DNA of 64,000 bases from Deltaproteobacteria bacterium RIFCSPHIGHO2_01_FULL_43_49. Lineage in GTDB: Bacteria; UBA10199; SPLOWO2-01-44-7. The position numbers and the translations under genes were made by a program. The stretch is taken from contig MGRG01000003.1 in the NCBI GenBank assembly GCA_001798075.1, positions 1 to 64,000 of the forward strand, written 5' to 3'. Below are positions 4,621 through 26,000 of this stretch, one piece after another. Within the stretch, counting starts at the first letter, position 1. Each line of letters opens with the position of its first letter. Below the pieces are notes generated by a model that did not search any database, was not told where the DNA came from, and saw only the letters and a list, made by a program, of their open reading frames with translations.

Positions 4621-4625
4621 TGTCT

Positions 4626-5672: not shown

Positions 5673-8600
5673 ATGCCTCCCATAGGTGGGGGAATGAAAT
5701 CCACAGGAGTTTGAAAATGTTCGTTAACAAAATTTTGAAGCCCTTCACGGTCAACCCCCCAGCCACCATATTTGAACTCTCCAATTTTTGTAAGCGCTGG
5801 ATCGTGTGCCAATTCACCGGGAGTAATTTGGAAGCCATGATTTTGGAATTTTACACCAGCAGCGGACAAACAAGAAGCGACAGCGGAGCTACAAATCTCT
5901 TTTGTTGGATTGTCTAAATAGGGTGAATTAACAACATTCGCTAAATTTGCATAATCATAGGGAATGCCTTTGTTCTGTTCAGCGTATTGAGTTAGCTTTT
6001 GAATATCAAATGATTGGTTAGGGTAATAAATTTCCCCAGAACGATATCTTAATGCAACTCTCAAAGGTTTCATATAAGTACCCGTCTCATCTGCAGAATA
6101 CACTTGTCTTTCCCATGTTAAGAAATCGGGCTCAGTTTCTACTGCTATATGTTTTGTAATGGGCCCTGCCCCACCATGCGTAAACAAATATACTTGCCCT
6201 GGCCGTGGGTCGGTGCCAAGTAGTTCATCCACATTGCCGGTCATCGATATTTGCTGTCCATCACTTTTATTTTTCGCAAACCCCAACGGATCGATCCAAT
6301 TGAGCGGATTGTTGTTGACGTAAGAATAGAGGTTGTAGCCGTCGATGTAACCGAGCGGATCTCTCTGCAAGAAGCGTCCTAGAGTTGGATGATAGTAGCG
6401 GGCTTTGTAATAGTAGAATCCTGTCTCGGCGTCATACATCTGGCCTGTGTATAAGAATGGGTTGCCGGCAGCGGAGTCTTCGAGCAAGGCGCCGCCTCCA
6501 TCATAAATTTCCACCTCACCGTAGGCACCGTATTTGTAGGTTTCGGTGATTTGGCCTTCGGAGTCGGTAAGAGAGACAACGGAGCCGAGGCCATCGGTGT
6601 GGTAATAAAAAGCGTTCCAAGTTCTAAGTTCTAAGTTCTGAGTCAACATCACAATCGGGTCATCGATGGAGTTGCCGCTTGTGGTGAGCGAAGTCGAACC
6701 ATAAATGAATTCCTTCGCAATGCTGTCGTCGGAGTTGATTTCGGCAACAATATGGACACCTTCGTAAACATATCTTGTCATGGTTCGACTTCGCTCACCA
6801 CTCGTCTGGCCGTCAACGGTCTTAAAGATTCTGCGGCCCAGGGCATCGTAGCCGTAGCTCGCTACTTCTGTCCCGTCCACCTTGCTCACGATACGGGTTA
6901 AAAGATTGCGATAGTTGTATTGATACGTGTGAACAACATCGTCGATTAAGTTGCCGTTCTCATCATAAATATATGGGGTACCATCTACATTGGTATAAGC
7001 ATTGACTTCGTTTGGGGTAAACTGCGTTCTAAGTTCTATGTTCGAAGTTCCAAGGGAATCGGAAGCAACGGTCCGCACCTTTTCCAGCCAGTTGTCAACA
7101 CCGTCTAAGGTCCATTGATTCGAAACACTGAAAGGCATGGAGCCGGGATTGGCGATCTCTGCGGTTGGGCTGGGGACCTGATTTTTGGCCGAAACCAGGC
7201 GATATAGACTGTCATAGGAAAAAACGTTCGAAGTTCTAGGTTCTAAGTTCGAAGTTCTTGTTTCAAATAAACGATTTCCGGATTTGTCATAACCATAAGA
7301 AAAGCGTTCTAGGTTCTGAGTTCTAAGTTCTAAGTTCAAAGAAGTCAGGCGTTTCAATGAATCGTAGGCAAACTCGGTCTTGGTGTTGTTGCCGAAGGTG
7401 AAAGATTGTGGACGGTCTTTGCCAATGTAAGCGGCGTTGAGAATGTTGACCGTGTCGGCGCCGAAAATCGTTTCCAAAATGCCGCTTGCTGTGGGGGTCT
7501 GCTGGATGGCGGTTAACCGATTCAGGGAATCATAGGCCGAATCGACCACACGACCTGATGGATAGGTGCGCTTTGTCACGTTGCCGACACCGTCATATTC
7601 CTTTGTAATAGAGCGGCTATTGATCGACTCAGACACAACACGGGACAAAGAATCATACCCAAAGGCCACATTCCCAATAACGTCGCCAAAAGGATCAGCG
7701 TTCTGTGCCGAAATCATCCGACTTAAAGCGTCATACGCAAAAGTCTCGCGGCCTGCCGGCGAGCCCCGCAGTGTAATCTCTTTGTTGGTGAGACGGTTGA
7801 GAGCGTCGTAAATTGAAGCGACCTTGAACCCATTGGGCTGAATCTCTTCGATCAGATTCGAATTGCGATCATAGCGCTTGGTGTAGGTCTGATTGTTGTG
7901 GAGCTTTACTTCGACTTGATGATTAAGTGCGTCATAGGCAAACCGCGTGGCATGGTTGTTGGCATCGGTGATTTCTGTGAGACGACCGTTGTCGTCATAA
8001 CCGTAGCGTGTGGAAACTGTGTCGGTAACAGCACCATCGCCGGCACCGGTGTTCGTCAGCTCCTTGACCTCTTCGATCAGACGATTGAGGCCATCATAAC
8101 TGTATTTAACCTTATTTCCCTGGCTTGTTGTGGCACCATCATCTAAGCCTGGCTTGTCTTTGGGATCAGTGCTTGTAATCAAATTATTTCTGGAATCGTA
8201 TTCGTAAGTATATTTGTGCCCGGCGTTGTTGGTTCGGTTAACAAGGCGGTTGAGGGGATCGTAGGAAAACTGCGTTCTAAGTTCTAAGTTCGAAGTTCCA
8301 AGTTCGATGTCCAACTGCTCTGCAACATTGCCGTTACCATCAAAGATATATTTTGTTTCGTTGCCCAAGGCGTCGGTTTTTTGGATCAGGCGATCGGCGC
8401 CGTCATAAACAAACTGCGTTCTAAGTTCTAAGTTCGAAGTTCTAAGTTTGCGAAGTTCTGTCAGGCGATTATTCTTATCATAGGCATACTTTATAACTGC
8501 ATCGGCATCGCCGTTTTCTTCGGTTTTCTGAACAAGGCGGTTCAGGGTATCATAAACAAACTGCGTTCGAAGTTCTAAGTTCGAAGTTCCAAGTCCATCG

Positions 8601-11600
8601 GGTGGGCCGCGGCGAGTAATGGAAGTGATGTTGCTCACCTCGTCGTAGGCGACGATCATCTCGCCCTTCAGCGGATCGGCAATCTTTTTGAGACGATTGA
8701 ACCCATCGTATTGATACGCAATCACGTTGCCATTGCCGTCCTTCATAAAAGAGACATTGCCGTTGGAATCGTAATTGAAAGTTTGCGTACTGGCCTCAGG
8801 CAATTTGCATCCCTTTGTGACTTGATAGGAGAGGTTTCGCTCATCATGAGAAACACAAGTTGAGTTTCCTTCCGGCTGTACAATACGCGTGAGATTTTCA
8901 TTGAGGTCGTATTGGTACTCCGTCAGCGCAATTCGCACTCCGTCTATCGTTTCGCGTTTCGTCGTGACCCGATCCAGAATATTATATGTGAATCTTGTTT
9001 CGACAGCCGCGTTGCCGGAAATGCGCACCACATTGTTGTTCGCATCGTATTCAATGTTGCGTTCAATAACCCCACTATCTACCTCCCCTTCCCCCCTCCT
9101 TACAAAGGAGGGGAATATCTCGCGTGTGACTTGATTCAGGGCATTTACTTCAAAAACAAAGGCGTTCCCACGGCCATCTGTGAACGAATTGATGTTGCCA
9201 ACCGCATCATAGCCAAATTGATTGGTCAGATTGAGGCGGCCGTTGCCAGCATCGCGGGTGATCTGTTCCAATTGGCCCTTATCATTATAAGTATAAGTAT
9301 CGACGTTGCCTTCACCATCGGTTATTGATGCAATCTGGCCGTGGTCGTTGTAGGTGTAGGTCTCACATAACTGCGTTCTAAGTTCTAAGTTCGAAGTACT
9401 AAGTTCGGGGAGACATTTTTGGGTTATGTTTCCTTTTTCATCCGCTTTGAAGGTTGTGACATGGCTTAAAGGATCGGTCACCTTTGTAAGTTGACTGAAT
9501 TGCGGATCGTAGGTGAACGTTGTCGCAAGCGGTGCGTCATTGGAACCAGTGACAGGTAACTGACGCCTGACCAACAAATTCCCCTTCGCGTCATATTCAT
9601 ATTGGATGGCATTGCCTTTAGGATTCGTTTGTTTGGTCAGCAACCCATCCTTATTATAGGCATACTGAGTGATGAATTTTGCAGGATCCCCCGCCCGCAC
9701 GCCGCGTGTGTATCGAATAATCTGCAGAGGATTTCCCTGGCAGTTAAAGACATAATCAATTTTGTTGCCGATGCGATCGATCACATTGGTGCGATAAAAG
9801 ACTTTGTCAATGAGATCGGGCGTGCACTCCAGGGAAGAGGCAACCTGATTGTATTCGATAAGGAACGCCCCTTCATCGCCGAAGGTTTGTTTGATGACAC
9901 GATCATAGATGGAATAAGTGTTTTTCAAATAAGTCTGCCCTTTGGCGTCAACAACCGTGAGGATGTTGTGATTGAGCTCCTCGCGATCATCCAAATATCC
10001 GGAAGAATAGGTATAACGCATCGTCTGGCCGGCGGGATTGGTGACAGAAATGAGATCTCCCTGCTGGCTGTAATTGAACTGAATAGTGCGACCAGAAAAG
10101 TCTTTTATTTCTGTCAGGTTACCAGAACTATTATAAGTATATTCTATCTTTCTTCCCACCGTGTCCGTTACCGAACTTAGAACTTTGAACTCAGAACTTA
10201 GAACGCTGTTGTATTCAAACCGCATCGTATTGCCATTGCGATCTTTGATTTGTGTAATATACCCATCCGCCCCATAGACATTTTCTGTGCTGTGCTTATC
10301 CTTGATGATAGCGCCGAGCATTTTTTTGGAATCGGCGGGATCCGGTGCAACAATCAACGTGTCAAAATATCCGGCCGGCGAAGTGTAAGCCTGTCCTGAG
10401 CCTGTCGAAGGATTCCCATCCGCATTTTTCACATAAATATCGAACCTCGCCTGACCATCGAACCTCGCAACATTCCCATCGTCGCGCAAAACCAGACGTT
10501 TGTTATAATTGTGATCCCAGTTGAATCCCAACGGCCCGTCAAACGTGATGCGGCTGCGATAGGTGCGGGTGAATTCAAAATCCAAACCTTGTCCTGAGCC
10601 TGTCGAAGGACCACGGCCGGGGATTTTGAGATCAGTATTCGTTTGCAACAAATCACCACTATGCAACAAAATGGGGTCGGTTGTATTATCTGCGTTTGCA
10701 TTGCTGGCTTCTTTATCAAATACAGCTTTTACAGGCTCTTCATTCGTATTGTTTGGCTTGTTTCCGGCTACTTCGGCAGGTCTCGTGGCCGAATCGGCCT
10801 CTTGAAAATTGGAGGCTATCTCTTGGCGATCCACATCGGTACTCTCCTCATCAGAGGGCTGCTCATTACCATTCGTCTTCGAGTACGGATCCCTGCTCGC
10901 AACGGCCCCGGCAAAATCGTAAATCGTAAAATCCTTCGTCAAAATTCTCTGACCAATGGCCAAAAGGTGGAAGCCGTCAATTTTGCTGACGACATTCTTC
11001 AATCCCGTGTTCAAAAGCGCCCCCACATCAAAGTTTAATTTTTTGAGAAATTTTCCAGGATTTTTTATGACGTTTAACACACCTTCCAATCCAAAAAGAT
11101 CTTTGCCGCTCATCATATCTTGAAACCGAAAACCGTCCAAACCCTTACCAACACCGTAGCTCAGCCCCATCTGGAACGGCCGTATATACTTTCCCAGCGG
11201 TCCGGGTATTTTAAACGAATTCATCAGGCTACTAGCGATACTACTGCCAAAGGACTTCAAACCATTCCGTGTAAGATCCGAAAAATTACCTCCCAATTTA
11301 ATCGGTCCCAAATCAATCGATCCAAAAAGGCTAGAGGCAAAATTGTTGGCAAGACTACCCGCACCTCCTGTAAGAAGAGTTGTCGCATTGATCCCCAACG
11401 AAAATTTGCCTGCGGTAAAAGTCAACGAGGCACCAGGAACAAGCCCCTTCTTAAAATCAAAATTAATTCCCAAATCCAGATGAAATCCCCACAAGCCATA
11501 AATATCCTTCACACCAATGGGATTATTCATGGCATAGACATAATGATTCGTTCCCTGAAGGAGCGGATCGCGGCTTAGGAAACGGCCAAGGGTCGGATCA

Positions 11601-14600
11601 TAATAGCGGGCGCCAAAATAGTAGAGGCCGGTTGCCTGATCGTAGGGCTTGCCTGCAAATAGGAAAGGATTGTGGTCGCTGCCATTCAGGAAATTGATAT
11701 TTCCGAAAGGATCATAGCGCACCGTTTGAACAACGTTTCCATCGACGTCACTCATCTTGAGAACATTGTCCATCTCATCGGAATGATAAAAATCGAGCTC
11801 ATCCCCTTCGATTTTGGCCAGACGCCGCCCCCCAACAAAAATATAGAATGCCTTCACCTCGCCATTGTCTCCCGCCTCCATTAAAGGATCGAGTGCCTCG
11901 CCATAGAGATAATATGTGGTTTTGCCATCCACTGTGGCCTGCTGCCGGCGGCCGGTATAATCGTATTGATATTTGGAGTCGGTTTCAAATTTGTTTTTGT
12001 TATCCTGTACATGGGCAGCCACCAAACGATGCTGCGGGTCGTATTCAAAACGTTTTTCCAACGTTACTTCGCCACCGCGTGTTTCACGCTGGGAGACAAT
12101 GTTTCCCAGCGCATATTCAACCGTACCTTGCCAAATGGCATCCTCGCCCTGTCTGATCTCATAGCCAACCAACTGCCCCTCTTCATAGGTGTAGTGAATT
12201 TCCTTGAGGGAATCCTTGTAACGGATGCGATTGCCATCGTGATCGTAGGTATATTCCTGAAATTGGGAGGCGGTCGCTTCGCCCTTCTTGAAATAGCGGG
12301 AGGCAATCAGGCGGCTCAATCCATCATATTCATAAGTGATTTTACTCCCATCCAAATGTTGGACGGAAATTTTTCGGCCGCGTTGGTCATAAAGATATTG
12401 ATCCTGCTGGATAAACGTTCCATCTTTTTTCCTGGCATCGATTCGAACGAGACGGCCGGCAGTGTCATAGGCATATTCATTCACAACTCCATTGGCATAG
12501 GTAATATGAATCGGCTGATCATCGGCTGCGTAATCGATTTTCGCGAGCAACAAGCCCCTTTCCGAATCTTTACGAACCTCTGATACACGATTTTGTTCAT
12601 CATATTTATAATAGACAATCAGACCATTGGGATAAATCAGCCGAACAAGATTGCTGAAGGCATCCCTGACCTGATAAAAAGTGTAGTCAGTGTTCAGCGT
12701 GTCAATGTGGCGCTCGACCATTTCTGCCCCACCCCCCGCATTGTAGGCGAAACGGGTATGCCCACCCTTGTCTTCAATCTGAGTGAGGCGGCCACGATTG
12801 GCCCTGTCAGCGCCATAAGACAAACGGATATTATGACCGCTCGGATAAGCAATGTCTTGCAAGAGACCATTCGAGGCAAAATTTAAATTCGCCCGCACGG
12901 AATTTCCGGCCGCGTCGAGATGGGCAATACTTCCGGAAGTCTGAGACTCATAGAGATTCATTTGATGACGATCCCCGCCCGGGAAGGTCCGATTGACCCT
13001 GCCCGAGGAATAATCGATTGAATCGGAAATATTGAGACCCAATGGGGTCGTGACATTCAAAAGATTGCCGAGAGGATCATAGGAGTACTGGGTCGTCACC
13101 GCGGAACCATCGCGGTCATATTTTTCCATCAAGACGGGATTGCCATTCAGGTCGTTTTCCACCTTCAAAACTTTTTCATTTCCCACACTGACTTGGGTTG
13201 TACTAAGAGGCGCCCCATCGGAAAGCCGCATTGAATAATTATACTGCAGAGGCTGATGGCCGCTCAAATTCTGTGTCAAAATCCTTCCCAGGGCATCATA
13301 GGTATATTGAACAAAGCGTCCATCGGGATAGGCCATCTGGGAGAGTTGTTTTTCGGGTGTATACGTATAGCGGGTGACAGCCCCGCCCTGATTTTCCTCG
13401 ATGAGATTTCCCAGTCCATCAAATCGTCTAAAAAAGCTGACATCCTTGTTCGTCGTGGTGTCGTGGAAAGTTGTCGTAATGGTTCTATTCGAAACATCAT
13501 AGTCATGCTTGACAAAAGAGCCGCCCGAAAAATCGATGCGCGTTAAAGCTCCAACTTTATTATAGATGTAGCGTCTCGAAACACCATGATCATCAACCTC
13601 TTTGAGTAAAAGGCCACTCACCCGATCATAAACGATCTGTTCGGTTCCCTCCGGAGGGACTGCCGCTGAGTCCAAAGCAATCTGGAGGGGCGCTTGAAGA
13701 GCATAGCTTTTTCCATCCAGCTCGCGAATGACCTGGCCTTGATGGTCATAGCAATGTTTCTTTAAAATCTGCTCCTCTCCATTGACAATCATGAAGGTAT
13801 AGTTGAGCTGGGTATTTTTCAAACCTCTGCCGCAGACATCACGACCACCATAGACGTAGCGGACCACTTCCGAGGCGGACTCTCCCGACTTACTAATTTT
13901 TGAAACGAGATTCTTCTGTTCTCCCTCACCCCCCACATATTCATATTCTGTATGCAGACCGCTTGGCTCCACAACGGAGGCTAGCCGACCTAGCGAATCA
14001 TAATTTCTTTCGGATTCCACATAGGTGACGCCATTCTGCGTGACCTCAACCTTGCTGATGCCATCGACTGTCTTTTCATCCGGATTGAGGCTCCAGGAAA
14101 AACGTTTCACGATTGAAAGGCCATTGCCACTCAAGCGTTCTTCGACTTGCCGCCAGCTTTCACTAATTTTATGGAAGAAGTTCTCTTTGACAGAGCCATC
14201 CAGGTCATACAAGACGCTGGTAATGGCTGGGCCGCCTTCTGCACTTGGCGACTGGGTCACTTCATTCACCCAATGATATTTTTGATAAAAGACCGTGCGA
14301 TCGGCGGGATCTGGGAATTCGGTAATAATCACAAAGCGGTTGTGACCAGCCTGCTCTTCACCGACCCTTTCTTCTTCACCATACCATTCGTAGCGCATGA
14401 TGCCGCCTGTTGGATAACGAATTTCCAAAAACTTCTTCGGTTCCTGCAAAGAATTCCAGCCAAGGCTTCTTTTCGGGAAAAGACACATCGGACATTGCGT
14501 TGTCGCTCCCCAATCATAATTGTAAACATTCGCATTGCCTTCAGGGTCTTTCATCGAAGTGATGCGATGTTCCCCATCCCACTGAACCTGCCAGGCCCTA

Positions 14601-15724
14601 GATGGCCGCTGACCAGAAGCATCAGGGACACCTGGAGCCTCCCACTCCTCAAGACCATTGTCGAGCGCACGAAGCGCAATGGTGCGGCCGGATTCATCCG
14701 TGATGGTTTGGGGAATGCCGGGTGAAGGCTTGAAAACATTTGTTTCAACAAAATGTCCCTGGGCATCTTCGATACGTTTTAACTGAAAACCAAAAATCTT
14801 CCAGCCGGTCAGCCTAAAATTGGCATGGCAGGTCTTGCGGGTAAAACTGAAGAGCGGAATTCCAATGCTAACACCGGCACTAAAATGTTCCCAACGGTCA
14901 CAAGGGTAAGAATAATAAACGGTGTAGGGTAATTCTCCACTCCCTGTCTTTTGAAATTGGTAGGCGACATTTTCGGGATCCACCAATCGAAGGACATCGA
15001 GTCGTTCTATTTCTTCAATCGTGGAACCAAATGGATTGACAAACTTGCTGCCTGTTTTGTCCCATAAACTTTCCCCCGTCGAAAAATCAAAGGGTTCGGC
15101 ACCGCCATCTTTATTGATCAGAAGAACAATGGCCGGTCTCTGGGAGGCATTCGGGCTGACATTGAGCAGAAGCAGGGCTCCAACATAATTGGACCAGGCA
15201 ACGTTCCAACCTTTATTCCCAGCCCTTAATGTAATTTCATTGTAAGACCGATCATGCTCTCCGCCCGTTGAAAAAGCCTTGAGGAGGCCAACCGCACCCA
15301 GATCCACGGCGGTATTATCATAGACAATTCGATCCACGTTTCCGATAACCGGCATATTTTGTCCGTCCAAGCGTGTTTGGATCACCGTGTGAGGTAAGGC
15401 GCCATCAAAGACTTCCCAGAATTTTTCGAGCACCATATCGCCGATCCCGGCATTGAAACTGGTAGAAAGCCCCATGGGGAGAACGCCCGGCAGGTTAATA
15501 TCCTGGGATTGCAACGTGAGATTTCCATTTTGCATGTTGACCGCAGCACCCTTGGAGAAGAATTCATAGGAAGAAAAAGATTGGAGGCCAGCGCCGTTCG
15601 TTATGTTGGTCGCTTGCGGCGTTTGGGCAAATGCTTTGAATGGACAGATAAGTAACAAGGATAACAGAATTGTACTGTGTACTATGTGCGATGTACTATG
15701 AAGTAATTTATTTAAAACTGCCAT
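5669..15724 (-). CDS. Giant secreted double-core Rhs/YD-repeat protein with papain-like toxin tip
   Basis: 3351 residues. A signal peptide (about 1-33) ends in AFAQ. YD repeats fill about 560-1340 and reach a complete core boundary (GARYYDPTLGRFLSRDPLL) near residue 1375. A glycine-rich linker follows to about 1680, then a second Rhs start (DPILLHSGDLL) with its own YD repeats and a second boundary (GRFLQRDPLGYIDG) near 3130. The last ~200 residues are the tip, with His in TKHIAVE near 3192 and Cys in EICSSAVASC near 3278. The start has GGAGG six bases upstream and overlaps the barrel gene by 13 bp. The second core holds many in-frame heptad arrays and other inserted repeats. Expected role: a surface-exposed or secreted contact-dependent toxin with an exchangeable tip. 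Confidence 0.88.
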   Translation of the reverse strand: MAVLNKLLHSTSHIVHSTILLSLLLICPFKAFAQTPQATNITNGAGLQSFSSYEFFSKGAAVNMQNGNLTLQSQDINLPGVLPMGLSTSFNAGIGDMVLEKFWEVFDGALPHTVIQTRLDGQNMPVIGNVDRIVYDNTAVDLGAVGLLKAFSTGGEHDRSYNEITLRAGNKGWNVAWSNYVGALLLLNVSPNASQRPAIVLLINKDGGAEPFDFSTGESLWDKTGSKFVNPFGSTIEEIERLDVLRLVDPENVAYQFQKTGSGELPYTVYYSYPCDRWEHFSAGVSIGIPLFSFTRKTCHANFRLTGWKIFGFQLKRIEDAQGHFVETNVFKPSPGIPQTITDESGRTIALRALDNGLEEWEAPGVPDASGQRPSRAWQVQWDGEHRITSMKDPEGNANVYNYDWGATTQCPMCLFPKRSLGWNSLQEPKKFLEIRYPTGGIMRYEWYGEEERVGEEQAGHNRFVIITEFPDPADRTVFYQKYHWVNEVTQSPSAEGGPAITSVLYDLDGSVKENFFHKISESWRQVEERLSGNGLSIVKRFSWSLNPDEKTVDGISKVEVTQNGVTYVESERNYDSLGRLASVVEPSGLHTEYEYVGGEGEQKNLVSKISKSGESASEVVRYVYGGRDVCGRGLKNTQLNYTFMIVNGEEQILKKHCYDHQGQVIRELDGKSYALQAPLQIALDSAAVPPEGTEQIVYDRVSGLLLKEVDDHGVSRRYIYNKVGALTRIDFSGGSFVKHDYDVSNRTITTTFHDTTTNKDVSFFRRFDGLGNLIEENQGGAVTRYTYTPEKQLSQMAYPDGRFVQYTYDALGRILTQNLSGHQPLQYNYSMRLSDGAPLSTTQVSVGNEKVLKVENDLNGNPVLMEKYDRDGSAVTTQYSYDPLGNLLNVTTPLGLNISDSIDYSSGRVNRTFPGGDRHQMNLYESQTSGSIAHLDAAGNSVRANLNFASNGLLQDIAYPSGHNIRLSYGADRANRGRLTQIEDKGGHTRFAYNAGGGAEMVERHIDTLNTDYTFYQVRDAFSNLVRLIYPNGLIVYYKYDEQNRVSEVRKDSERGLLLAKIDYAADDQPIHITYANGVVNEYAYDTAGRLVRIDARKKDGTFIQQDQYLYDQRGRKISVQHLDGSKITYEYDGLSRLIASRYFKKGEATASQFQEYTYDHDGNRIRYKDSLKEIHYTYEEGQLVGYEIRQGEDAIWQGTVEYALGNIVSQRETRGGEVTLEKRFEYDPQHRLVAAHVQDNKNKFETDSKYQYDYTGRRQQATVDGKTTYYLYGEALDPLMEAGDNGEVKAFYIFVGGRRLAKIEGDELDFYHSDEMDNVLKMSDVDGNVVQTVRYDPFGNINFLNGSDHNPFLFAGKPYDQATGLYYFGARYYDPTLGRFLSRDPLLQGTNHYVYAMNNPIGVKDIYGLWGFHLDLGINFDFKKGLVPGASLTFTAGKFSLGINATTLLTGGAGSLANNFASSLFGSIDLGPIKLGGNFSDLTRNGLKSFGSSIASSLMNSFKIPGPLGKYIRPFQMGLSYGVGKGLDGFRFQDMMSGKDLFGLEGVLNVIKNPGKFLKKLNFDVGALLNTGLKNVVSKIDGFHLLAIGQRILTKDFTIYDFAGAVASRDPYSKTNGNEQPSDEESTDVDRQEIASNFQEADSATRPAEVAGNKPNNTNEEPVKAVFDKEASNANADNTTDPILLHSGDLLQTNTDLKIPGRGPSTGSGQGLDFEFTRTYRSRITFDGPLGFNWDHNYNKRLVLRDDGNVARFDGQARFDIYVKNADGNPSTGSGQAYTSPAGYFDTLIVAPDPADSKKMLGAIIKDKHSTENVYGADGYITQIKDRNGNTMRFEYNSVLSSEFKVLSSVTDTVGRKIEYTYNSSGNLTEIKDFSGRTIQFNYSQQGDLISVTNPAGQTMRYTYSSGYLDDREELNHNILTVVDAKGQTYLKNTYSIYDRVIKQTFGDEGAFLIEYNQVASSLECTPDLIDKVFYRTNVIDRIGNKIDYVFNCQGNPLQIIRYTRGVRAGDPAKFITQYAYNKDGLLTKQTNPKGNAIQYEYDAKGNLLVRRQLPVTGSNDAPLATTFTYDPQFSQLTKVTDPLSHVTTFKADEKGNITQKCLPELSTSNLELRTQLCETYTYNDHGQIASITDGEGNVDTYTYNDKGQLEQITRDAGNGRLNLTNQFGYDAVGNINSFTDGRGNAFVFEVNALNQVTREIFPSFVRRGEGEVDSGVIERNIEYDANNNVVRISGNAAVETRFTYNILDRVTTKRETIDGVRIALTEYQYDLNENLTRIVQPEGNSTCVSHDERNLSYQVTKGCKLPEASTQTFNYDSNGNVSFMKDGNGNVIAYQYDGFNRLKKIADPLKGEMIVAYDEVSNITSITRRGPPDGLGTSNLELRTQFVYDTLNRLVQKTEENGDADAVIKYAYDKNNRLTELRKLRTSNLELRTQFVYDGADRLIQKTDALGNETKYIFDGNGNVAEQLDIELGTSNLELRTQFSYDPLNRLVNRTNNAGHKYTYEYDSRNNLITSTDPKDKPGLDDGATTSQGNKVKYSYDGLNRLIEEVKELTNTGAGDGAVTDTVSTRYGYDDNGRLTEITDANNHATRFAYDALNHQVEVKLHNNQTYTKRYDRNSNLIEEIQPNGFKVASIYDALNRLTNKEITLRGSPAGRETFAYDALSRMISAQNADPFGDVIGNVAFGYDSLSRVVSESINSRSITKEYDGVGNVTKRTYPSGRVVDSAYDSLNRLTAIQQTPTASGILETIFGADTVNILNAAYIGKDRPQSFTFGNNTKTEFAYDSLKRLTSLNLELRTQNLERFSYGYDKSGNRLFETRTSNLEPRTSNVFSYDSLYRLVSAKNQVPSPTAEIANPGSMPFSVSNQWTLDGVDNWLEKVRTVASDSLGTSNIELRTQFTPNEVNAYTNVDGTPYIYDENGNLIDDVVHTYQYNYRNLLTRIVSKVDGTEVASYGYDALGRRIFKTVDGQTSGERSRTMTRYVYEGVHIVAEINSDDSIAKEFIYGSTSLTTSGNSIDDPIVMLTQNLELRTWNAFYYHTDGLGSVVSLTDSEGQITETYKYGAYGEVEIYDGGGALLEDSAAGNPFLYTGQMYDAETGFYYYKARYYHPTLGRFLQRDPLGYIDGYNLYSYVNNNPLNWIDPLGFAKNKSDGQQISMTGNVDELLGTDPRPGQVYLFTHGGAGPITKHIAVETEPDFLTWERQVYSADETGTYMKPLRVALRYRSGEIYYPNQSFDIQKLTQYAEQNKGIPYDYANLANVVNSPYLDNPTKEICSSAVASCLSAAGVKFQNHGFQITPGELAHDPALTKIGEFKYGGWGVDREGLQNFVNEHFQTPVDFIPPPMGGI
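6613..9407. repeat. Nine heptanucleotide arrays inside the rhs gene
   Basis: Arrays of the 7-bp unit GTTCTAA and variants lie at 6613-6643, 7024-7054, 7225-7260, 7305-7340, 8272-8308, 8415-8460, 8563-8594 and 9373-9407, with one in opposite orientation at 10173-10206. All are in frame. Most are read on the coding strand as TTAGAAC units and give peptides such as TSNLELRTQ; the opposite array gives VLSSEFKVLSS. They fall between YD repeats. Confidence 0.85.
10390..10610. repeat. Two copies of the CCTGAGCCTGTCGAAGGA repeat
   Basis: Copies at 10390-10412 and 10589-10610, both in frame in the second Rhs start region, giving NPSTGSGQA and GPSTGSGQG. A related form (CCCCGAGCGAAGTCGAGGGG, 20245-20270) encodes PSTSLGAG in the FG-GAP protein. 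Both copies interrupt otherwise conserved Rhs N-terminal sequence. Confidence 0.75.
15670..15703. repeat. Heptad array of a second type within the signal peptide
   Basis: Four 7-bp units of the form TACTATG/TACTGTG cover the codons for HSTSHIVHST in the Rhs signal peptide. The period is the same as in the GTTCTAA arrays but the unit differs. Confidence 0.65.
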
Positions 15725-16683
15725 GTGAATCCTCCGAAAACTCTAAAAGCCGGTGAACCAATAGCAGAGGTTAAACCTTTGCCCACGCCGAAATAGTAGG
15801 AACAGCGTTCTAAGTTCGAAGTTCTAGGTTCCAAGTCCCTCGAACTATGAACTTTGGACTTGGAACCTAGAACGGTTTTTCTCACCCCCAAGCGCCATTC
15901 CAGAGGAACGGTTGATTGCTTGGTATCCGTGAAAAGTTTTTCCCCCACCAATTCCGTTTCCACAGCCCAGCTTTTTTGCTGCCAGGGCAATTGATAGCGA
16001 GCTCCCACTCCAAACGTGAACGCGTCTCCAAATTCACTCGACAGAATCCGCACCGTCTTTCTCAACTTGAATCCGACATTCCCCAAAACGTAGAACGTAG
16101 AACCTAGAACGTCGAACGCCTTATCCCCCACCAATCGATAATCCCAACTCACCCCCCGCTCACCCGTGAATTTGGCCTGCGAGCCGGTTGGAAAAGAAAA
16201 CCGCGAAAAGAGGGCCAAGGCTGGAAATTTTTTCGATTCTTTCGCCAAACGATATTTCAGATCGAGCCTAAGATCACCCAATGAAGAAGCCGTAAACGAT
16301 TGAAGTGTATTAAAATTCGTCCCGCTTTGAACAAAAAGAACGGGGAGTCCCAACCCAAAAGAGAAATGATCCCAATAACTGCTGGCGACCAGAAAATCAC
16401 CGCCCCAGAAAAAATCCAAAACTTCAACCTGCCTGCCGGTGGCCGGGACAACAACTGTGTTGGAATCACTCCCAAGATTTGTTGCAAAACCTGCACGCAC
16501 TTTTAAATTGGGAGGAATTTCTGTTCCAACGACATTGTAAATTCCACTTTGATCGGCGGCTGGTTTGAAGAGTTGACGGTCAAAACCCATTAAACCGGTA
16601 TCTCCAGCATATCCTTTTGAACACATTAACAATAGCATGATTAAAAGCGTTCTAAGTTCTAAGTTCAAAGTTCTAAGCTTCAT
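15712..16683 (-). CDS. Outer-membrane beta-barrel protein
   Basis: About 323 residues with a signal peptide (to AGDTG) and then GFDRQLFKPAADQSGIYNV, the opening of the barrel domain of myxobacterial/deltaproteobacterial OmpA-like proteins. Alternating beta-strands follow to a C-terminal GGFTWQF, with the terminal Phe typical of outer-membrane barrels. I chose ATG at 16683 because it gives a proper signal peptide; the longer frame to 16770 would run across the four-helix gene. No OmpA peptidoglycan-binding domain follows. Heptad arrays encode part of the signal peptide (16648-16680) and two loops (15805-15875, 16089-16118). The stop overlaps the rhs start by 13 bp, so it may be the outer-membrane partner or export helper of Rhs (inference). 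Confidence 0.75.
   Translation of the reverse strand: MKLRTLNLELRTLLIMLLLMCSKGYAGDTGLMGFDRQLFKPAADQSGIYNVVGTEIPPNLKVRAGFATNLGSDSNTVVVPATGRQVEVLDFFWGGDFLVASSYWDHFSFGLGLPVLFVQSGTNFNTLQSFTASSLGDLRLDLKYRLAKESKKFPALALFSRFSFPTGSQAKFTGERGVSWDYRLVGDKAFDVLGSTFYVLGNVGFKLRKTVRILSSEFGDAFTFGVGARYQLPWQQKSWAVETELVGEKLFTDTKQSTVPLEWRLGVRKTVLGSKSKVHSSRDLEPRTSNLERCSYYFGVGKGLTSAIGSPAFRVFGGFTWQF
15805..15875. repeat. Inverted pair of heptad arrays forming a hairpin
   Basis: GTTCTAGGTTCCAAGTCC (about 15820-15837) is followed about 18 bases later by its reverse complement GGACTTGGAACCTAGAAC (about 15856-15873). All of it is in frame in the barrel gene, translated as a GSKSKVHSSRDLEPRTSNLE loop. The perfect arms suggest an array copied in inverted orientation. 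Confidence 0.75.
16648..16680. repeat. Heptad array at the junction of two genes
   Basis: Four units at the 5' end of the barrel gene. In that frame the unit that would give a stop reads TTTGAAC, keeping LRTLNLELRT open. In the overlapping four-helix frame the unit CTTAG supplies the stop codon. Confidence 0.75.
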
Positions 16684-17059
16684 TTTTACCCTCGCTTCGT
16701 AAATATCGGATAAAACCGCGAACCATGTTGGTACAATTTTGGGTCTTTTCGTATGTTTTTTTGAAAACATCCTGATTGATTAGATCGTTATCCAGTGCCA
16801 CATAGAGATGGGATTGCACTTCCAGGCAAGAACGTGTTGCTATTTTCAAAAATCGTGCAAATTCAACGTTGGAATGGGCACCGAATCCCTCGGCAATGTT
16901 GGCCATAACGGAGACAGCAGCTCTTCTCACCTGATCCCTTAATCCAAAATCTTTGGAGAAATTCCCCTCCTTAGTGAGTTGATAAACCATATTGACCAAA
17001 CCTCTTGCCAGTTGCCAACACTTCAAATCTTCAAATTTATTGATGCCTGATGTTTCCAT
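16673..17059 (-). CDS. Four-helix-bundle protein (S23 / 23S rRNA IVS-type)
   Basis: 128 residues of the four-helix-bundle family first found in 23S rRNA intervening sequences: FEDLKCWQLARGLVNMVYQL, then DFGLRDQVRRAAVSVMANIA with EGFG, then EFARFLKIATRSCLEVQSHL. Length and motifs are complete. Members are often stand-alone genes of unknown role. Here the gene is wedged between two giant surface-protein genes, overlapping the upstream FG-GAP gene by 23 bp and the downstream barrel start by 11 bp. Its own stop codon lies in a heptad array, so this frame is tightly embedded in the operon. Confidence 0.88.
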   Translation of the reverse strand: METSGINKFEDLKCWQLARGLVNMVYQLTKEGNFSKDFGLRDQVRRAAVSVMANIAEGFGAHSNVEFARFLKIATRSCLEVQSHLYVALDNDLINQDVFKKTYEKTQNCTNMVRGFIRYLRSEGKNEA

Positions 17060-20000
17060 ATTTTTTTCCCATCCGTCTTCTTAGAATATAGAACATAAAA
17101 ACCAGAACGCCGTATCCAACAATGATGTAGAGCATAAAACCTAGAACCTCGAACTTAGAACTTAGAACGTAGTTTGCATTCAACTGACAATTTCCTTTGA
17201 CATAAGATGCCGTGGGACCATGGAAAGAAGTCGGTTCGTTGACATTTTCACTCTTTTCTTTATCGGAGCCCTCCTCTAATGCCTTGGAAAGCTGCGCACT
17301 CTCCAATGCTTCGTCCAAATTAAGCTGTGTTTCCCTCTCATTTCTTGGCGTCGCATCGATGGCTCCCAACAAAGAGTCCAACATGTCGATCCTGCTGTCC
17401 GCTTTTGAACTTAGAACTTGGGACTTAGAACTTAGAACGCTGTTGACTGAAGCCATCAGCGCGTTCAAATCCTTCTCAACCTTATAAGGAACTTCCAGCA
17501 TCGCTTTATCCATCACACCCGTTTTCCAAGTCGCGACAATTTCGGTGGCCATCTTTTGGTCCCTGACTTCAAAGGGCATTCGGTAGAGATAATCGATCGA
17601 AACCTTGTCCAAAGCGGATATTTTAAGTTTATAAGAGCGAGTGTCCACCGGCGTTTCGCTTCCGGTCGAGGCCGTTTCGATCAATCCACCCGATGGGAAA
17701 ATTTCTTTGACGTCGACCACCACATCTTGATCACCGGAGTTTGTGAAAGTCAGTTTTGAATCGACCACTTCGCCAGCATTGAGTTTGTCTTCCTTGGGTC
17801 GCACATATTCAATGAGATCCGCCAACGCAGCCTTCGCCGCAGCATCATTGTTTGTGGCAACGAGACCGGCATTTGCCGTCACCTCAACAATATGGCCATC
17901 ACCATAGCGATGGTGCCTAGCGGCACTTTTTAAATCAGATACAACGCTCAGCATCGAAAGGGGTTCGCCATCCCCCGCACTCCAATTTTCTTTAAACATC
18001 TGCCAGGGCTTGCCATCCATTTGGCTAAAACCTGCCAAATTGATAAATGCCTCTCCCTTGTCGATGCGACTCTTGAGTTCCTTCAAGGTTCGGATGACTT
18101 TTTCATCCTCATCCGCAAAATTCACAACCAGTGAATCGGTTGCGAAGATAAAGGTGGTAAATTTATCGGAGCGCATCGCATGGATAAATTCGTCAAGGTT
18201 GTCCGTGATTTTGAAATAACCTCCCATCTCTTTGAGTAAATCCACCAAGAAGTCCGCATTCGGACGCGGATCTTCGGGACGCAAATCAAAGGTCTGGAGC
18301 AAATAAACTAAGGTGCGCGGCATGGCGAAATCTTGTCGCTCAATCATCACATCGATCAGTTGCGCCACAAATTTCTTTTCGGGCGAAAGATTTCCAAGTT
18401 TATCCTTGGCTCGCCAGGTGACGGTGTGGGAACCTGCCCCCAGATGAATGACATCAAACGGCCCCTTGTAGAGTTGCCAAGGGCCGTCATCAATGCGGTA
18501 TTCCGTGATGTCGTTGCCAACACCGGTGGTGTTTCCATCCAGGGAGATTTTGGTCTGACGGGTTACATATTGATCCCCATCTCCCTGATTCAAGGCCATC
18601 AAGGGGTCGGGAGGCGTGTTATCCACGACGACACGCTGGGTATTCGTCGGTTCGATATTGCCCAGAGTGTCTGTGCCGCGATTGTGAATTTGAAAGTCCC
18701 CCTCAGTTGGAATCTGGAAAGGTCCCGCGATTTTCCAATCTTCCTCGTTGATTTTATATTGCGTCTTATCCAGGTCATTCCGCTCCGTTTTTGTTTCAAA
18801 ATCAAAAGGTGTGGCCGAGGTGACATAGACAAAGCCTTCATCGGGGACTTTGGGATCTCCAATGATGAGTTTTGTTATGGGAGGTGTGCCGTCGAGATTG
18901 ATGTTGAAAAGCTTTTTGAATTCCTCGTTATCGAGATGATCTTTGGCCCAGTAGTAGATAAACTTTAATCCATCGCTTAAACCCACAAGACTGAAAGGCT
19001 TGTCATAAACCAGTGTTTCATCCACTTCCGGCGTTTCGACAAAAATATCTTTGATGCCCACGCCATCCGGGTCTTGGGCTTCCAGCGTGATGGGCGTGGT
19101 TGGCGAAATCCAGGCGGTATCGAAGTCACCAATCTTTGGCTCACCGATTGTTATCGTTGTGGCCGGCGCCGTTTTATCCAGACGGAATTGCAAGGATCTC
19201 TCCTGCTCCTTGTTTCCAAGGTTGTCTAAAGAAAGAAAACGGAGAGTATAATCGATGTTTTCCATGGGGACCCTGAAAGGCCCCGCAAAATCCTGGAAGG
19301 CGGCATCCCCGAAGGTGTATTGAATCTTTTGGACGCCGGAAGCAGGCACAGGATCGGTGGCACTCAAAAGGATTCGAGAGTCGTTGGCAAGCCAGCTTTT
19401 CCTTTCCTTATCCACAAACCAGGGACCCGTGACATCGATAAAAGTTCTGGGTGGCAGGCGATCGATAAAAATTTCTCCAGAGGCTTCTTGGGACTCCCCT
19501 GAGACAGGCTTGGAGCGGTTCCCCGCCGGATCTTCCGCGATCACTTTGAAACGATACGTTCCATCAAAAGCCGGATTTTCCGCCAAATTGGTCCCGTCCC
19601 AACTAAATTGATGCTCTGCGGGAGGGATCGCTACTAAATCGGAGGCCTCCTTGATCTCAAATCCTTCCGGTGATTCCAGATGAAGTTCTGTCTGGATGTC
19701 TTGATTGGCTAGGTTGTCACCAATTTGATAACCCACTTGTAAAATGTCGGAAAGCAAATCGCCATTGGGTGAAAAATTCAAAACCTGACCACCAAGCAAA
19801 GTGACTTGTGGTGGCGTAATGTCATAAACTAAGTTGCCGGTTTTGGTTTCGGATAGGTTGCCTTGGGAATCGGAGACTTTAATTTCATAAGTGTAGAGGC
19901 CTTCGGATAATAAACTGCGTTCTAAGTTCGAAGTACTAAGTTCTAAGTAGCCATCCCAAACGAGCTTATCTTCGTAAGGCTTTCGATCCCAAATGACATG

Positions 20001-23000
20001 ACGAGTTCCATCGCTGCCAACGAGTACAAAATTGACAAAAAGTTCTTTGGAAAAATTGTCCGTTGCAAAGACCAAAAATTCAATCGTGTCTTTTCTGCCG
20101 TCTCCGTTGGGAGAGATGGCATTTGGGACTCCGGAGACCAAAAGCGTCGGCGCAACATCGTCTAACTTCAACTCAACGCTTTTTTCCAATTCGATATTTC
20201 CGAGATGGTCGATGCTTCTATAAGAAAGCGTTCTACGTTCTAAGCCTGCCCCGAGCGAAGTCGAGGGGTTCGACGTTCTAAGAGGGTCGCGATAGACGGA
20301 CCAGGGATCGTTATCAAAACGATATTCCATGCGGGCCACACCGACAGGTTGGATGCCGTCATCGAAGGCCTTCAAAATAATTTGTGTTTCTGGAGTGACG
20401 ATAAAAACGTTTCCAAATTTCTGGTATTGGCCATCTGCAACAACGGTGGTGACCGGCGGTGTGGAGTCCAGAACGACTTGACGACTTTGCACGTCGCCCC
20501 GCAACCCGTTGGCATCTACCGCGTAATAGTCAATCGTGTAGAGGCCGTCATCGCCACCTGACAGGTCAAAAGGTTCCAAATAAGCCTGATACGTTGCGCT
20601 ACCTGCCCGATACTTAATTTGGGTTAACGAGCCACCGCTGGCAGCGATGGTGAAGAGGGTCTCACCGGTTACCCATTGCTGATTGTTTTGTACATAGTTT
20701 GGTCCAGAAAGCGAAAGTGCAAGACTGGTTTGCGATGCCACTTCAGAATCAAGAGTTTCCTGAATTTTAACGGTCCCAAACCGTGGCGTTTCCACGTTTC
20801 CATTTTTGTCGGTTGCCCTATAAACGATGGTGTGTGTTCCCATAGTGAACGGAATGGTGAGGGGCTGGAAATAATCAATAAAGGTTTCGCCGTCCCAGAC
20901 ATATTCGATTTTTGCCACACCCGCCACTTCATCGGAGGCCTTGATCTCCACCACGGAATCATGGCCTGCGGTAATAGAGCCGCCATCAGCGACAGCTTGC
21001 CCATTGACCAGCAAAGTGGATTGGCCGGCGTTGTTGTCGATCGCGACGGGTAACTCGTGGCGAATGGTTTCCCCTCTGTCATTTTGAGCTTCAAAAACAA
21101 GTATGAGAGAACCATCCAGATTGGAAACATCCCAAGGAATATCAAACTGGGCTTCATTTCCTGTATGGATGAAGGTTTCTCCATAACGAATGGTGAGATT
21201 TTGAATGGGGGCCAATTGACCATCCTGTTCCACCTGGCCTTGTATATTGACGATGCCCTTTAGATATTCGTCTGTCCTGGGACTTGTAATTTTAAACTTC
21301 GCAAACTGTTTTCTGGCCAGAAAGTACTGTGAAAAATGCTCTAGGTTTGCGGTGAAACGATAGACATCATCGGTGGGATCGGAAACGTTGCGAATATCCA
21401 GTTGAGCGATGGTCACCAAGCCCTCAAGGAGTTCATCACCTGCCAAATTGTAGATTTGCAGGTCCGAAGCATCAGCCACACCAAAGACATCACGGATTTC
21501 TTCGGGGGTGAAAACCAATTCCAGTTGGACATGATAACTGGGATCGATTTGGATGTTGTCCGGCTTGATATCAAAAATGGGACCCAAGGGCGCCACACCG
21601 CTTGGCAAACGGAAATCGGCCTCGTTTTTGGGAACGGGGTTGATCGTGATGAGTTCCGGCTGTGAAAGTGATCCTGGGCCAAAAATGAGAGAAGAACGTT
21701 TGAATGTTGAATCGACACGGGCAAACTCTCCTTCGTTGAGTTCGCTGGTGTCCACCTTGTGCCCAATTCCGATATTGAAAGTATCTTGATTGACCTTTTC
21801 CGAGTTGGGATCTTTGGTCTTTAAAACGAGTGTGTAATTTTTGCCATTGAGTTTGGTGACATCCCAGTGGGCCAGGATATCATTGGCGACGGCATTGTGG
21901 GTTCGCGGAGGAATTTTCACCCATGAAGGGTTTTCCTTTGAGGCATCATAATAATAGAGTTCATAATTGGACGAAGCGCTTCCCACAATTTCCACAAAGC
22001 GTTTGGGCTGGGCCTCGGGAAGGAGTTTTAATCGAAATGTATCTTCGATGTTGCCATTTCGTGGTTCGCGAACGCCGCTATTATATGCAACATCTTGAAC
22101 ATGAAAAATGTTCAGGGCATCGGTGCCAGCATCGAGAGGATTGTCCCCATCCTCTTTATCAACAGAGACATTGGGATAGCGAACCTCAATCTGCCAGTCG
22201 GTCAAATGGACGACATTAGAAAAGGTGTAGAGATTTCGCTCAGGATCTTGCCCCCAAACGTTAGGAACATAACCCTGGGCTGGGTATCCTTCGCTCACAT
22301 CATTATAGAAATTGATCGGCCGCGTAAAATAGTGAAACTGATCCTTGTTAAATCCCCGGTGCCAACCCCAGATTTTGCGGTATGGAACTGGAAGTGTGTA
22401 GGGATCATCGCGGTCACTTTTAAATTCGGTGATTCGATTGCCATAGTTATCACGCGTTTCAGCTTGGAGGGTGCCGCCACTTAGCCAACCAGCCAGAGCT
22501 GGCAAAACAATGGTTGAACCGTTGGAACTGCTAGAACTGGGATAGCCGTTGACGGTGTCACTCAAACCAAGATTATAGCCTGTGATCCAGGAATCAATGA
22601 CATCAGTTTGGCCGCTCCCAATGGAAGCACTATAAGATACCAGATTGGTATTTGGAGGAGGAAGCGACAAACTATTCAAGGTCTTGTTGCTCGAAGTTGT
22701 CGGTGCAGATTGACCCGGAATGGGCCAGGAGCGGGTGGCTTGAGCAGAACCGTGTGTGGTTACCTCAATTTCCCCGCATTGATGTAAGTAACCACCAATA
22801 TAACCACCTAGTGCCAGCAGTTGATCTCTCCAGTCATTGGGTCTGGGTCCATTCGGATACAAGGGGGAAGGACAATAAGGAACCCAACCAGGGCAACCTC
22901 CAAAGAAGCCCCCGTCACAAGAAGTATAGACAGGGACCGGGCCTAGAAGGACTTCGCCATCGGAGTAGCCGCACAAATATCCGCAGGACTGTCCTGTATT

Positions 23001-26000
23001 CACACATCCGGAACCATCACCACCGGTACCATTATAATAAAAACGAACACTCCCATTCTGAAAAAGTGGAGAGTCACTGGCATTCGGAAAAAGTTGGGAA
23101 CTGTTTGCTGGCATTTCAATAATTTCCCCTACGGAACGGCTTGGAAGACGCAGGTCACCCGTATATTGAGATGCTAAAGTGAGTGCCTTTTGAGAATAGG
23201 TCTCTTGAGATGTAAAAATCCTGGCACCGCTACCCCGAAATATCACATCAAAACTCTGAATGGGAAGACTGTTCCCCACTGTTATTTCTCTGAACAATAC
23301 CCCGCCGAAACCATCATTGGCTGCTCGAGTTGCCGATTCATAATCAGGGGGATAAGCTAAATCTCGAACATCACCACCGGGGCCAGAACGACCACCAGTA
23401 AAAGGAGAATAATTAATAGCCCAGACACCATTAGACCCACTACGACATTGATATACGGGCTGCTTGACGGTATTGGGGTTCGTTTGCGTATAATTCTCCT
23501 CCCCATACGCACTAATCTGATAGTTGAAGGGAACCTCCACATAACCACTCCCAACAGAGCGCCAAATAAAATCAGGGCTGCCGGCCATGGAGTACAAAGT
23601 GCCATTGTTAACAAAATCTTCCTTTTCATCCCCTTTTAATTCATTCAACTTGGCGGTAAGGCCTGAGTCCAAAACGAGTTGCTCCAAATGAACGACAATA
23701 TCTTTGATAGCTTTTTCATCATTGCCCAAGTCAATACCCGTGGCGGTCAGGCGGACAACATAATCCCGGTCGGCGGTCAGAATAATTCCATTATCCGCGG
23801 AGCCATCCCACAAAACCGAATCGGTTTTTCGAATCTGATCCGCAAGTAATGTCTTTTGTAAAACGCCGCCTTCTTCTGGCTTGGCATTGAAGACTTGCAA
23901 TGTAACCTTGGCATCCTTAGTCAGGGCAAACGATAGGGTCGTTTTTTCCGGTTCCAGATCCGCTCCAAATCCAAAGGGATTTATATGATCCGGTGTGGCC
24001 GTAAAAGAATTGATCGCCAAAATATCTCTGGCTGAAAACCCGCGGGCCACATCAAATTCCAGAGATTCATCTATCGCCACTCCCGTTCCATCGATGGCGT
24101 TGGCAGTAATGCGGATTTTATAATGACCCCCGTCGACATTGCGGCCCAATGTGTTCGTTCCATTCCAAACAAAATTATAAGATGCGGGCGCTTGTTTGTT
24201 GAAAGAATAAGCAGAAACAGCAGCGCCAAGCGAACCATTGTTGTAAGGAAAAATATCAATGTGAATGTTGGAAGTTTCATTGGCGAGCGTATAGCTGATC
24301 GTCGTGCTTGGGTTTTCCCTCGAAATGAGTGCATTCGAAAGCGGAGCCGTTATAATACGAGGGCCTTGATAGATGGGATTGAGCGGGTTTCTGGGATCGA
24401 AGAGATCATTGGGATCTAAAAGCGGATCGGTTGCCAGGGCGTTATGCACACTGACGATCGTGGTATCATAATTTACTTTGCCAATTGTGTTGCCGTTGCT
24501 GTCCAGAACTTTTAGCAAAAGGGTATAATCACCGTTAGGGGTAAACTGCGTTCTAAGTTCTAAGTTCGAAGTTCCAGGTTCGGAAAGAGTTGTGGTGTCA
24601 AAAGTCCCCAACTCGCCGTGCTGAACGGGTCTGCAAGAGACATTGGAATTGGGAAAGCCCAAGTCATTGGACTCATTTTGCGCGTTGTCGGGACATTGAT
24701 TGCGAAGAGGCACAATCAGAGGCAACCACCCGGAACCCACCTTGCCAACATCCACGACCTCGTCAGGAGTGATATTCCAGACACCCGGCCGATAATAAAG
24801 TTTGTAGGCTTTGAAATCGGCATCCAAATTATTTTCGCCAAAATTGGGATCCGTTGCGATTCCACTAACGGTGATTTTTCCAAAGACTCCTGCTCCCTCC
24901 TGAGGCGATTCGATTTCCGCCTTGATCCCATTGACGATCACATTGACTTTTGAACTGGTAATAAAACCCTCTTTCGATTGGGCGACAACCTTGATGATAT
25001 AAGTTCCGGTGTCGAGCGGCGTATCGTCCTTGGGAGTAAAAGTTCCTTTGGTATCGATTCCAGAAAATGTTTCTTGATACTCGCCTGCTGAGCGGGACTG
25101 TTTGGTCATCACCCTTGAAATAAAACGCTCATGAGCATCATAAAGATCGAGCGAGATCAGCGCTTCATCCGAAAGTCGGTAATGAACCTGAACAGAGTCA
25201 TTGACCCCATCGCCGTTGGGAGTGAAAAGTTTGGGAAAGGCGAAGGCATCGGTGATCTTCACCCCTTCCACAAAATTAAAATCGGCTTTTGAATCCCAGT
25301 CATGGATGTTTTCACCCAATAAGATGTGGGAATATTTTTCCAGCTTGTTGCGATAAATCGAATAAAGATCCCAGCCGGTGGCAGTCGAAAAGAGTCCTTC
25401 GTAGAGATCATTGGCCACCACGCCACCTGTTGGCAATGGTTGGCGATAAAGAAGGGGCTCGCGCCAATGAATAACTTGAGTGCCATTGGTTTCAAAAGCC
25501 AGAATATCTTGGGTTTCACTAAGGACGATCAATTCCGGCTCGCGGTCTAAATCGATATCTTCGGCCACAACGCCGGAAATTATTTTTTGGCCTTCCGGCA
25601 TCAAGATATTCAAAAGTTGGTTGCCATTTTTATCGACAGCGACAAGGTGATTTGCTTGAGTGGTATAGATCAGATCAGGATATAAATCGCGATTGACATC
25701 GACAAAAATCGGCGCATCGATGATTTTCTCTGAGCCAGTGGGTAAAGGTAACTGCTTTAACACCTCACCCCCACCCTCTCCCTCAAGGGGAGAAGGAGAC
25801 CAATATTTAATCTCACTTCCGATGACGATAAAAAGATCTTCCAAACCATTATTGTCCGAATCACCAACGGCGACAAATGGCTGGGGCTCAAATGAAAAAT
25901 CTTTTATTTTTTGAAAATCCCGTCGATAAATGTAAACCCTGGATTGTGTTTGAAAAACGATGTCCAAAAGAGAATCATGATTCACATCGGCCAAAATAGG

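Follow-up and report, generated by a model that had tools for sequence, protein, structure and literature searches.

GTTCTAA heptad arrays in a deltaproteobacterial genome and their association with IVP genes enclosed by inverted copies of the same repeat

Arrays of the heptanucleotide GTTCTAA recur in the first 64,000 nucleotides of contig C3 of Deltaproteobacteria bacterium RIFCSPHIGHO2_01_FULL_43_49 (C3:1-64000, hereafter the window; assembly of 2.23 Mb in 15 contigs), and two of them, in inverted orientation, exactly enclose a gene for an IVP, the PF05635 protein known from intervening sequences (IVSs) of 23S rRNA. The same arrangement was found around IVP genes of distant bacteria, each with its own repeat unit, and this unit tends to equal the one scattered through the same genome. 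In our judgement, the arrays within genes probably correspond to the ends of an IVP element, dispersed without its gene and filtered by selection for an open reading frame, with binding by an IVP multimer promoting their spread. The earlier note on this DNA, which had read the arrays as inserted mobile or expanding heptads, missed that 16673-17059 is an IVP gene with inverted brackets of the same arrays, and that such brackets are general for IVP genes. To our knowledge, no origin has been agreed for the heptanucleotide arrays reported in bacteria for decades, and the IVP (S23) protein is common, of solved structure and of no known function. If both form one element, each explains the other, since the arrays would acquire an origin and the protein a target.

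About 17 arrays of GTTCTAA-like heptads, of 4-6 units each, were found between 1626 and 24584, where none is expected. Most lie inside two giant minus-strand genes, at 5669-15724 (Rhs-repeat) and 17037-26390 (FG-GAP/Ig/FlgD/CHU_C-type). The window has 11 exact (GTTCTAA)x2 matches where shuffled sequences predict 0.00, so the dispersed arrays described in the earlier note are real and, as tandem 7-bp units far above chance, have the character of heptad long simple sequence repeats (LSSRs) or short tandemly repeated repetitive sequences (STRRs). They had been placed at 6613-24583; arrays do occur there, but they reach from ~141 to 24584 and across the whole genome. The genome-wide search that the note had proposed, made with four GTWC+NNN units, returned 62 matches, which leave ~43 distinct arrays (GTTC or GTAC plus NNN) once duplicates and palindromic double counts are removed; nearly all are in frame within long open reading frames (ORFs). 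Here and below, genome-wide statements are based on pattern searches and on sampled stretches of the genome. The count of 13/17 GTTCTAA-rich arrays within 25 kb around the IVP gene is inflated by Rhs duplication. In an unbiased period scan of 400 kb of the same genome and of stretches of its relatives, four-unit arrays were almost only of period 7, with some of period 8 (in the relative G005, 17 of period 7, 3 of period 8 and 1 of period 4, against ~0 in shuffles), and 539 kb of unrelated named loci gave 2. Some arrays form inverted pairs with a short loop, and more than one heptad unit can occur within a single genome.

The IVP gene (16673-17059, minus strand) encodes 128 aa assigned to 23S_rRNA_IVP (PF05635, E 2.4e-34, 118 bits against a cut-off of 33.8), a four-helix-bundle protein related to PDB entries 2gsc (XCC0516) and 2rld, with five chains in each. 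It stands exactly between GTTCTAA arrays at 17127-17168 (minus strand, the 5' arm) and 16649-16676 (plus strand, the 3' arm), making an element of ~520 bp (16649-17168, minus strand) between the giant gene and the next gene. The arms are identical at 25/28 positions, and folding of the RNA gave a stem of >40 bp around the gene (minimum free energy -151.5 kcal/mol, z -3.4). The upstream giant protein terminates through one arm, translated as VLSSKFEVLG near its C-terminus, and the downstream protein (15712-16770) begins in the other, the complement of which codes MKLRTLNLELRT at its start. The element encodes the IVP alone, with no transposase, recombinase or reverse transcriptase of its own. 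No reverse transcriptase or diversity-generating retroelement turned up beside it, in analyses that were not aimed at either, and the IVP was not found in the phage records searched. Avd, the accessory protein of diversity-generating retroelements, is a four-helix-bundle pentamer, which we take to be of the same structural type as IVP.

The window element shares with the 23S rRNA IVSs of Leptospira and Coxiella a PF05635 ORF and terminal inverted repeats that form a long stem around it. The likeness to the Coxiella IVS extends to tandem heptamers ahead of the ORF, GACAGAT units preceding S23p there, with a 28-bp terminal stem (PMC4990558). In contrast to the rRNA IVSs, the window element has protein genes on both sides (17037-26390 and 15712-16770), as do the plasmid elements described below, and related IVP-less arrays are scattered in the genome; no Rfam match was found in window positions 1-31000. 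It is therefore an IVP/IVS-type element that departs from the classical ones in a single respect, its location outside rRNA.

Inverted arrays around IVP genes of distant bacteria

In the family and class, arrays with a lag of 7 or 8 were far commoner in IVP flanks than at control genes. Among distant bacteria, lag-7 values of at least 20/28 were found in 27/52 IVP flanks, with 0-5 for other lags, and 31/46 IVP flanks were array-positive compared with 2/118, 7/143 and 9/92 in controls (Fisher 8e-20 and 5e-12). Period 7 accounts for 60 of 73 bracket arrays, with 10 of period 8 and 3 of period 9, and the median length is 4.9 units. Ten named plasmid IVPs (from Nostoc, Calothrix, Anabaena, Geminocystis, Picosynechococcus, Pseudanabaena, Riemerella and Azospirillum) had 18/20 positive flanks, the arrays being inverted in nine cases and direct in one. 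Pairs of head-to-head IVP genes ~100 bp apart were also seen, recurring in one genome (G040:C31:26828-27552, G031:C97, G011:C14, G039:C133), and may be another form of IVP element.

The comparison of bracket unit and scattered unit covers part of the IVPs in the genomes concerned. In the genome studied here both are GTTCTAA. Among its five relatives in the family, G001 has a GGACTAC bracket and 260 matches to the GKAC pattern, G005 a GGACCAT bracket and 295 matches, G004 a GGACYAT bracket and 184 matches, and G002 a GTAC bracket and 43 matches. G003, which is of the same genus as G005, has 0 GGAC array matches and no array at the IVP examined. The unrelated genome G189 combines an AGGCATA bracket with 165 matches, against 0-1 in 24/25 other genomes. 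An unusually long GTACTAA/GTACCAA array of ~17 units was noted in G002 (L286:6738-6867).

Plasmid relatives of the IVP element allowed filled and empty orthologous sites to be compared at six or more sites, about five of them clean. Within one strain, Nostoc sp. C052, plasmids pC052_D and pC052_B differ by a 417 bp block that comprises the IVP and both arrays, with ATTCT(A) at both edges as a possible target-site duplication. Blocks of 494 bp at nrdB/nrdA (N. edaphicum and Calothrix NIES-4105, L399), 424 bp at cas10/cmr3 (Picosynechococcus PCC 7003 and 7002), 506 bp (Nostoc ATCC 53789 and C052) and 599 bp (N6 and C057) likewise include the IVP, and IVP and arrays are present or absent together between Calothrix NIES-22 and N. 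carneum. Two more pairs are blurred through local replacement. Because the IVP and both arrays come and go as a block, the element behaves as an insertion unit of ~400-520 bp, the pairs giving no direction. A target-site duplication was rejected as general proof of insertion, AACTGC (at the window array starting at 8274) and ATTCT(A) (Nostoc) forming no consistent pattern. At the site of an IVP element in a related Nostoc plasmid, L452:674-905 holds an insert of 232 bp that contains GGGAACT heptads but lacks an IVP gene, possibly an IVP-less derivative.

Several of the plasmid elements lie within CRISPR operons (L402, L403, L405), at cas10/cmr3 and cas6/cas4. Such positions between co-directed operon genes bear on the alternative that the inverted arrays serve the IVP transcript only, the double-stranded stem being cut by RNase III as in the 23S IVS so that insertion into an operon is tolerated, with solo arrays as inert debris or recombination products. 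The stem of >40 bp around the window IVP agrees with this, and RNase III indeed cleaves the Coxiella IVS within its terminal stem (PMC4990558). Nevertheless, a stem does not need a period of 7, and this alternative leaves unexplained why the same unit forms hundreds of solo arrays in G001, G004, G005 and G189. As a full account we regard it as quite improbable; it is, however, compatible with an origin of the arrays from IVP elements and does not exclude it.

Arrays within genes and their reading frame

Three GTTCTAA units place a stop in any frame, and the earlier note had claimed that in genes exactly the unit at that phase is changed. This was examined across the genome in arrays that contain two or more GTTCTAA units, with duplicates removed, the stop-phase unit being the one where GTTCTAA would place a stop in the host frame. 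GTTCTAA occupied 0/18 stop-phase units and 34/49 other units (Fisher p = 1.1e-7), a bias partly forced by the sampling of open ORFs; for many hosts, however, Pfam domains on either side of the array confirm the frame independently. Replacements were mostly single-base (GTTCGAA 6, GTTCTGA 4, GTTCAAA 3), and unit-by-unit reading recovered the altered units named earlier (GTTCGAA, GTTCAAA, GTCCCAA, GTTCGAG). The selective change at the stop phase thus stands, but the neighbouring units are not uniformly perfect, as 15/49 non-stop units vary as well. Non-coding arrays were too scarce in this genome to serve as the comparison proposed in that note. An open frame itself requires that the stop phase be avoided, and the bias therefore shows tolerance and selection and not a special mechanism.

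Orientation is also uneven, with 30 of the 43 arrays antisense to the host gene and 13 sense (p = 0.014). Antisense arrays code loop-like peptides (TSNLEPR/SNLELRT), and sense arrays (VLSSK, KFQVPSS) are mostly near N-termini, signal peptides or C-termini; overall, arrays mostly occupy loops, linkers, signal peptides or termini. Translation of the arrays bore out that SNLELRT and VLSSK recur in unrelated proteins. Outside the window, in-frame arrays were found in genes with Pfam domains of GluRS, HisRS, UppS, PurH, PurL, class II ribonucleotide reductase (RNR), a MiaB-like radical SAM enzyme, DsbD, a 2-oxoacid dehydrogenase E2 and a Ser/Thr kinase. The proposal that heptads are tolerated in surface proteins after selection accordingly holds for dispersal and for selection on frame (stop phase, antisense excess, loop and terminus positions) but not for a restriction to the surface, given the GluRS, HisRS, UppS, PurH, PurL, RNR, MiaB-like and E2 hosts. 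The HisRS gene itself (L090:2092-3384, plus strand) has relatives mainly in Bacillota and other distant groups (43-47% identity), and horizontal transfer is suggested on this account.

These hosts bear on two further readings. Under the first, the arrays would be binding sites of a global regulator, for which their tandem form and fixed small copy number speak and which has been proposed for the four-unit heptads of Geobacter metallireducens (PMC2700814) and for TAACTGA of Beggiatoaceae (PMC4679880); most arrays, however, lie deep within coding genes of unrelated function, and the unit differs between family members at one site. Under the second, gain or loss of a 7-bp unit would shift the frame and switch Rhs and other genes on and off as contingency loci. 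A 7-bp unit is not divisible by 3 and two Rhs paralogues differ by one unit, but arrays have only 4-5 imperfect units and are present in enzymes too essential to be switched off. Because the arrays lie in essential enzymes, both were rejected as main explanations, and we give each very little credence.

When the proteins were aligned with orthologues of 45 relatives, the UppS, GluRS and PurH arrays fell in variable loops. In the five other family members the same loop is often occupied by other heptads: GACATCG in G002, GTACCAG in G005 and GGGACCA in G001 for UppS, and GGAC+NNN in G001, G004 and G005 for GluRS. The GluRS array of the genome studied here begins with GGACCTC, followed by GAACCTC units, in the codon phase of the GGAC arrays of its relatives. 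This shared phase indicates that the array is older than the genus and that its core was altered in place. The loops of relatives' UppS, GluRS and PurH (L099, L100, L129, L133, L183) also hold other dispersed repeats, of CTTCGACAAGCTCAGG / CCTGAGCGAAGTCGAAGG and TTGCCCGCCGGTAGTNNGGCGGG types; for this reason they look like general landing places.

Some array evolution therefore happens in place, as in GluRS. This favours the view that the arrays are ordinary heptanucleotide LSSRs, arisen by slippage at seeds, with selection retaining open arrays and IVP genes adjacent by chance. In many genomes no LSSR class is commoner than the heptanucleotides, for which polymerase slippage has been proposed as origin (Mrazek 2007, as cited in PMC4679880), the copy number differs by one unit between the window arrays at 141 and 1710, and a single genome can contain several different units. 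Inverted arrays of one unit on either side of a single gene family across distant bacteria are not expected from slippage, nor is a genome-wide unit that matches the IVP bracket or an array-IVP-array block present or absent as a whole, and the arrays are short and imperfect, hence poor substrates. In-place expansion alone accounts neither for the sharing of a unit with the bracket nor for the filled and empty IVP sites, and we consider this view unlikely.

A candidate element and points against it

In the scheme that we favour, an IVP element consists of an S23 four-helix-bundle gene between inverted arrays of ~4-5 heptads (sometimes octads), so that a long stem can enclose the gene in the RNA or in a single DNA strand. 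The heptad differs from element to element, and several genomes also carry it elsewhere, as solo arrays and array-array hairpins. The IVP multimer may bind its arrays, as the general bracket, the sharing of units and the five chains in both solved relatives suggest, and thereby promote their spread. The folded element could be inserted by host functions or by a helper in trans, and isolated arrays, presumably derived from element ends, may arise as by-products or partial copies. Within genes, the survivors would be copies that keep the frame in permissive places, with the stop-phase unit substituted.

A number of observations weigh against this scheme. Compared with relatives lacking the array, UppS, GluRS and PurH are only ~4-6 residues longer, while an array takes ~10 codons; this small gain, seen in the comparison with insert-free orthologues that the earlier note had proposed, implies that arrays replace sequence as well as add it. 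Four family genomes agree in the phase and length of the GluRS array but differ in its core (GGAC and GAAC). An octad brackets the IVP of G185 and is not dispersed there, and dispersal as a necessary result of a bracketed IVP was rejected on this ground. G061 has 24 matches to the G189 unit and its one examined bracket differs, no IVP was found in G028 with its long GGACTTA arrays, and several IVPs in the flank analysis had no detectable bracket. No consistent target-site duplication was seen across the filled and empty plasmid pairs. For a solo in-gene array no empty site was found, the comparison having been made on plasmid IVP elements. Finally, we know of no catalytic domain in IVP.

Several parts of the picture are known separately: heptad LSSRs, the Geobacter four-heptads, the TAACTGA and GGGAATC repeats, and the heptamers before Coxiella S23p. 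Like the LSSR/STRR heptads of cyanobacteria, Xanthomonas (GGGAATC) and Beggiatoaceae (TAACTGA, PMC4679880), the arrays described here are tandem 7-bp units, specific to a genome, within and between genes. Inverted pairs were noted for the Xanthomonas repeats, which are generally without association to insertion sequences or transposable elements (Rehm et al., PMC4692102). The link to an IVP gene is absent from those reports and present here. Geobacter metallireducens has 49 copies of four-heptad elements (GGACCGG) that resemble the present arrays in their GGAC core and in lying in and between genes, sometimes several per gene, but these were read as regulatory RNA elements (PMC2700814). Rickettsia palindromic elements (RPEs) are likewise small selfish repeats, some of them in frame in unrelated ORFs (PMC10969869), as the heptad arrays are in unrelated protein genes. 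RPEs are, however, palindromes of ~150 bp (~100-150 bp), whereas most arrays here are single tandem heptads of 28-42 bp with few hairpin pairs. Scattered heptads linked with IVP genes were not reported in the open-access literature searched, which may miss prior work.

A wider reading, to which we lean somewhat less than evenly, is that PF05635 IVPs act in trans for minimal mobile elements of a very widespread class, the ends of which are heptad or octad arrays, with one repeat unit recognised per subunit of the IVP multimer. Much of the STRR/LSSR content of bacteria would then consist of such ends and of derivatives without an IVP, some of them domesticated in frame within essential enzymes. 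If true, this would add to selfish DNA a short class able to persist in frame within essential proteins, and would readily account for odd repeated peptides such as SNLELRT and SNLEPRT.

Remaining arrays and repeats of the window

Within the giant gene 17037-26390, a sense solo array (17404-17438, minus strand) encodes VLSSKSQVLSSK, and antisense arrays on the plus strand lie at 19919-19946 and 24550-24584, the latter giving SEPGTSNLELRT. The gene 15712-16770 carries a hairpin form in frame (15807-15873, plus strand), in which the array 15807-15834 (plus) faces 15839-15873 (minus), and a sense solo array of GTTCGAC/GTTCTAG/GTTCTAC (16090-16117, minus strand). A related GTAC-core array (GTACTGT/GTACTAT, 15671-15700, plus strand) occupies the signal-peptide region of the Rhs gene. 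One Rhs array is sense (10177-10204, minus strand, VLSSEFKVLSS). Antisense arrays of this gene, all on the plus strand, are found at 9375-9402, 8565-8592, 8418-8445 (LRTSNLELRT), 8274-8308, 7306-7340, 7226-7267 and 7026-7053; that at 8274-8308 has AACTGC at both sides, a possible duplication that may be due to chance. AACTGC/AAAAGC precede GTTCTAA arrays in this genome, and a conserved flank as a general element end was rejected, the GGAC arrays of G001 and G004 having no flank consensus.

Copies of the Rhs C-terminal region at 666-1886, 2362-4431 and 5669-8700 (minus strand) all have an array at one shared place. In the Rhs gene it is the solo array at 6614-6641, ahead of FYYHTDGLGS, and the paralogues carry it at 3279-3313 (5 units, the frame preserved through compensating changes) and 1626-1653 (4 units), all on the plus strand. 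A GTTCCAA/GTTCCAT array (1710-1740, plus strand) has a paralogous counterpart at 141-164 that is shorter by one 7-bp unit, and one Rhs copy is for this reason probably frame-shifted. Further tandem repeats of the window, at 2009-2073, 4367-4519 and 4537-4625, comprise a perfect 33-bp duplication, a 78-bp duplication and a TGATGGATT-type array.

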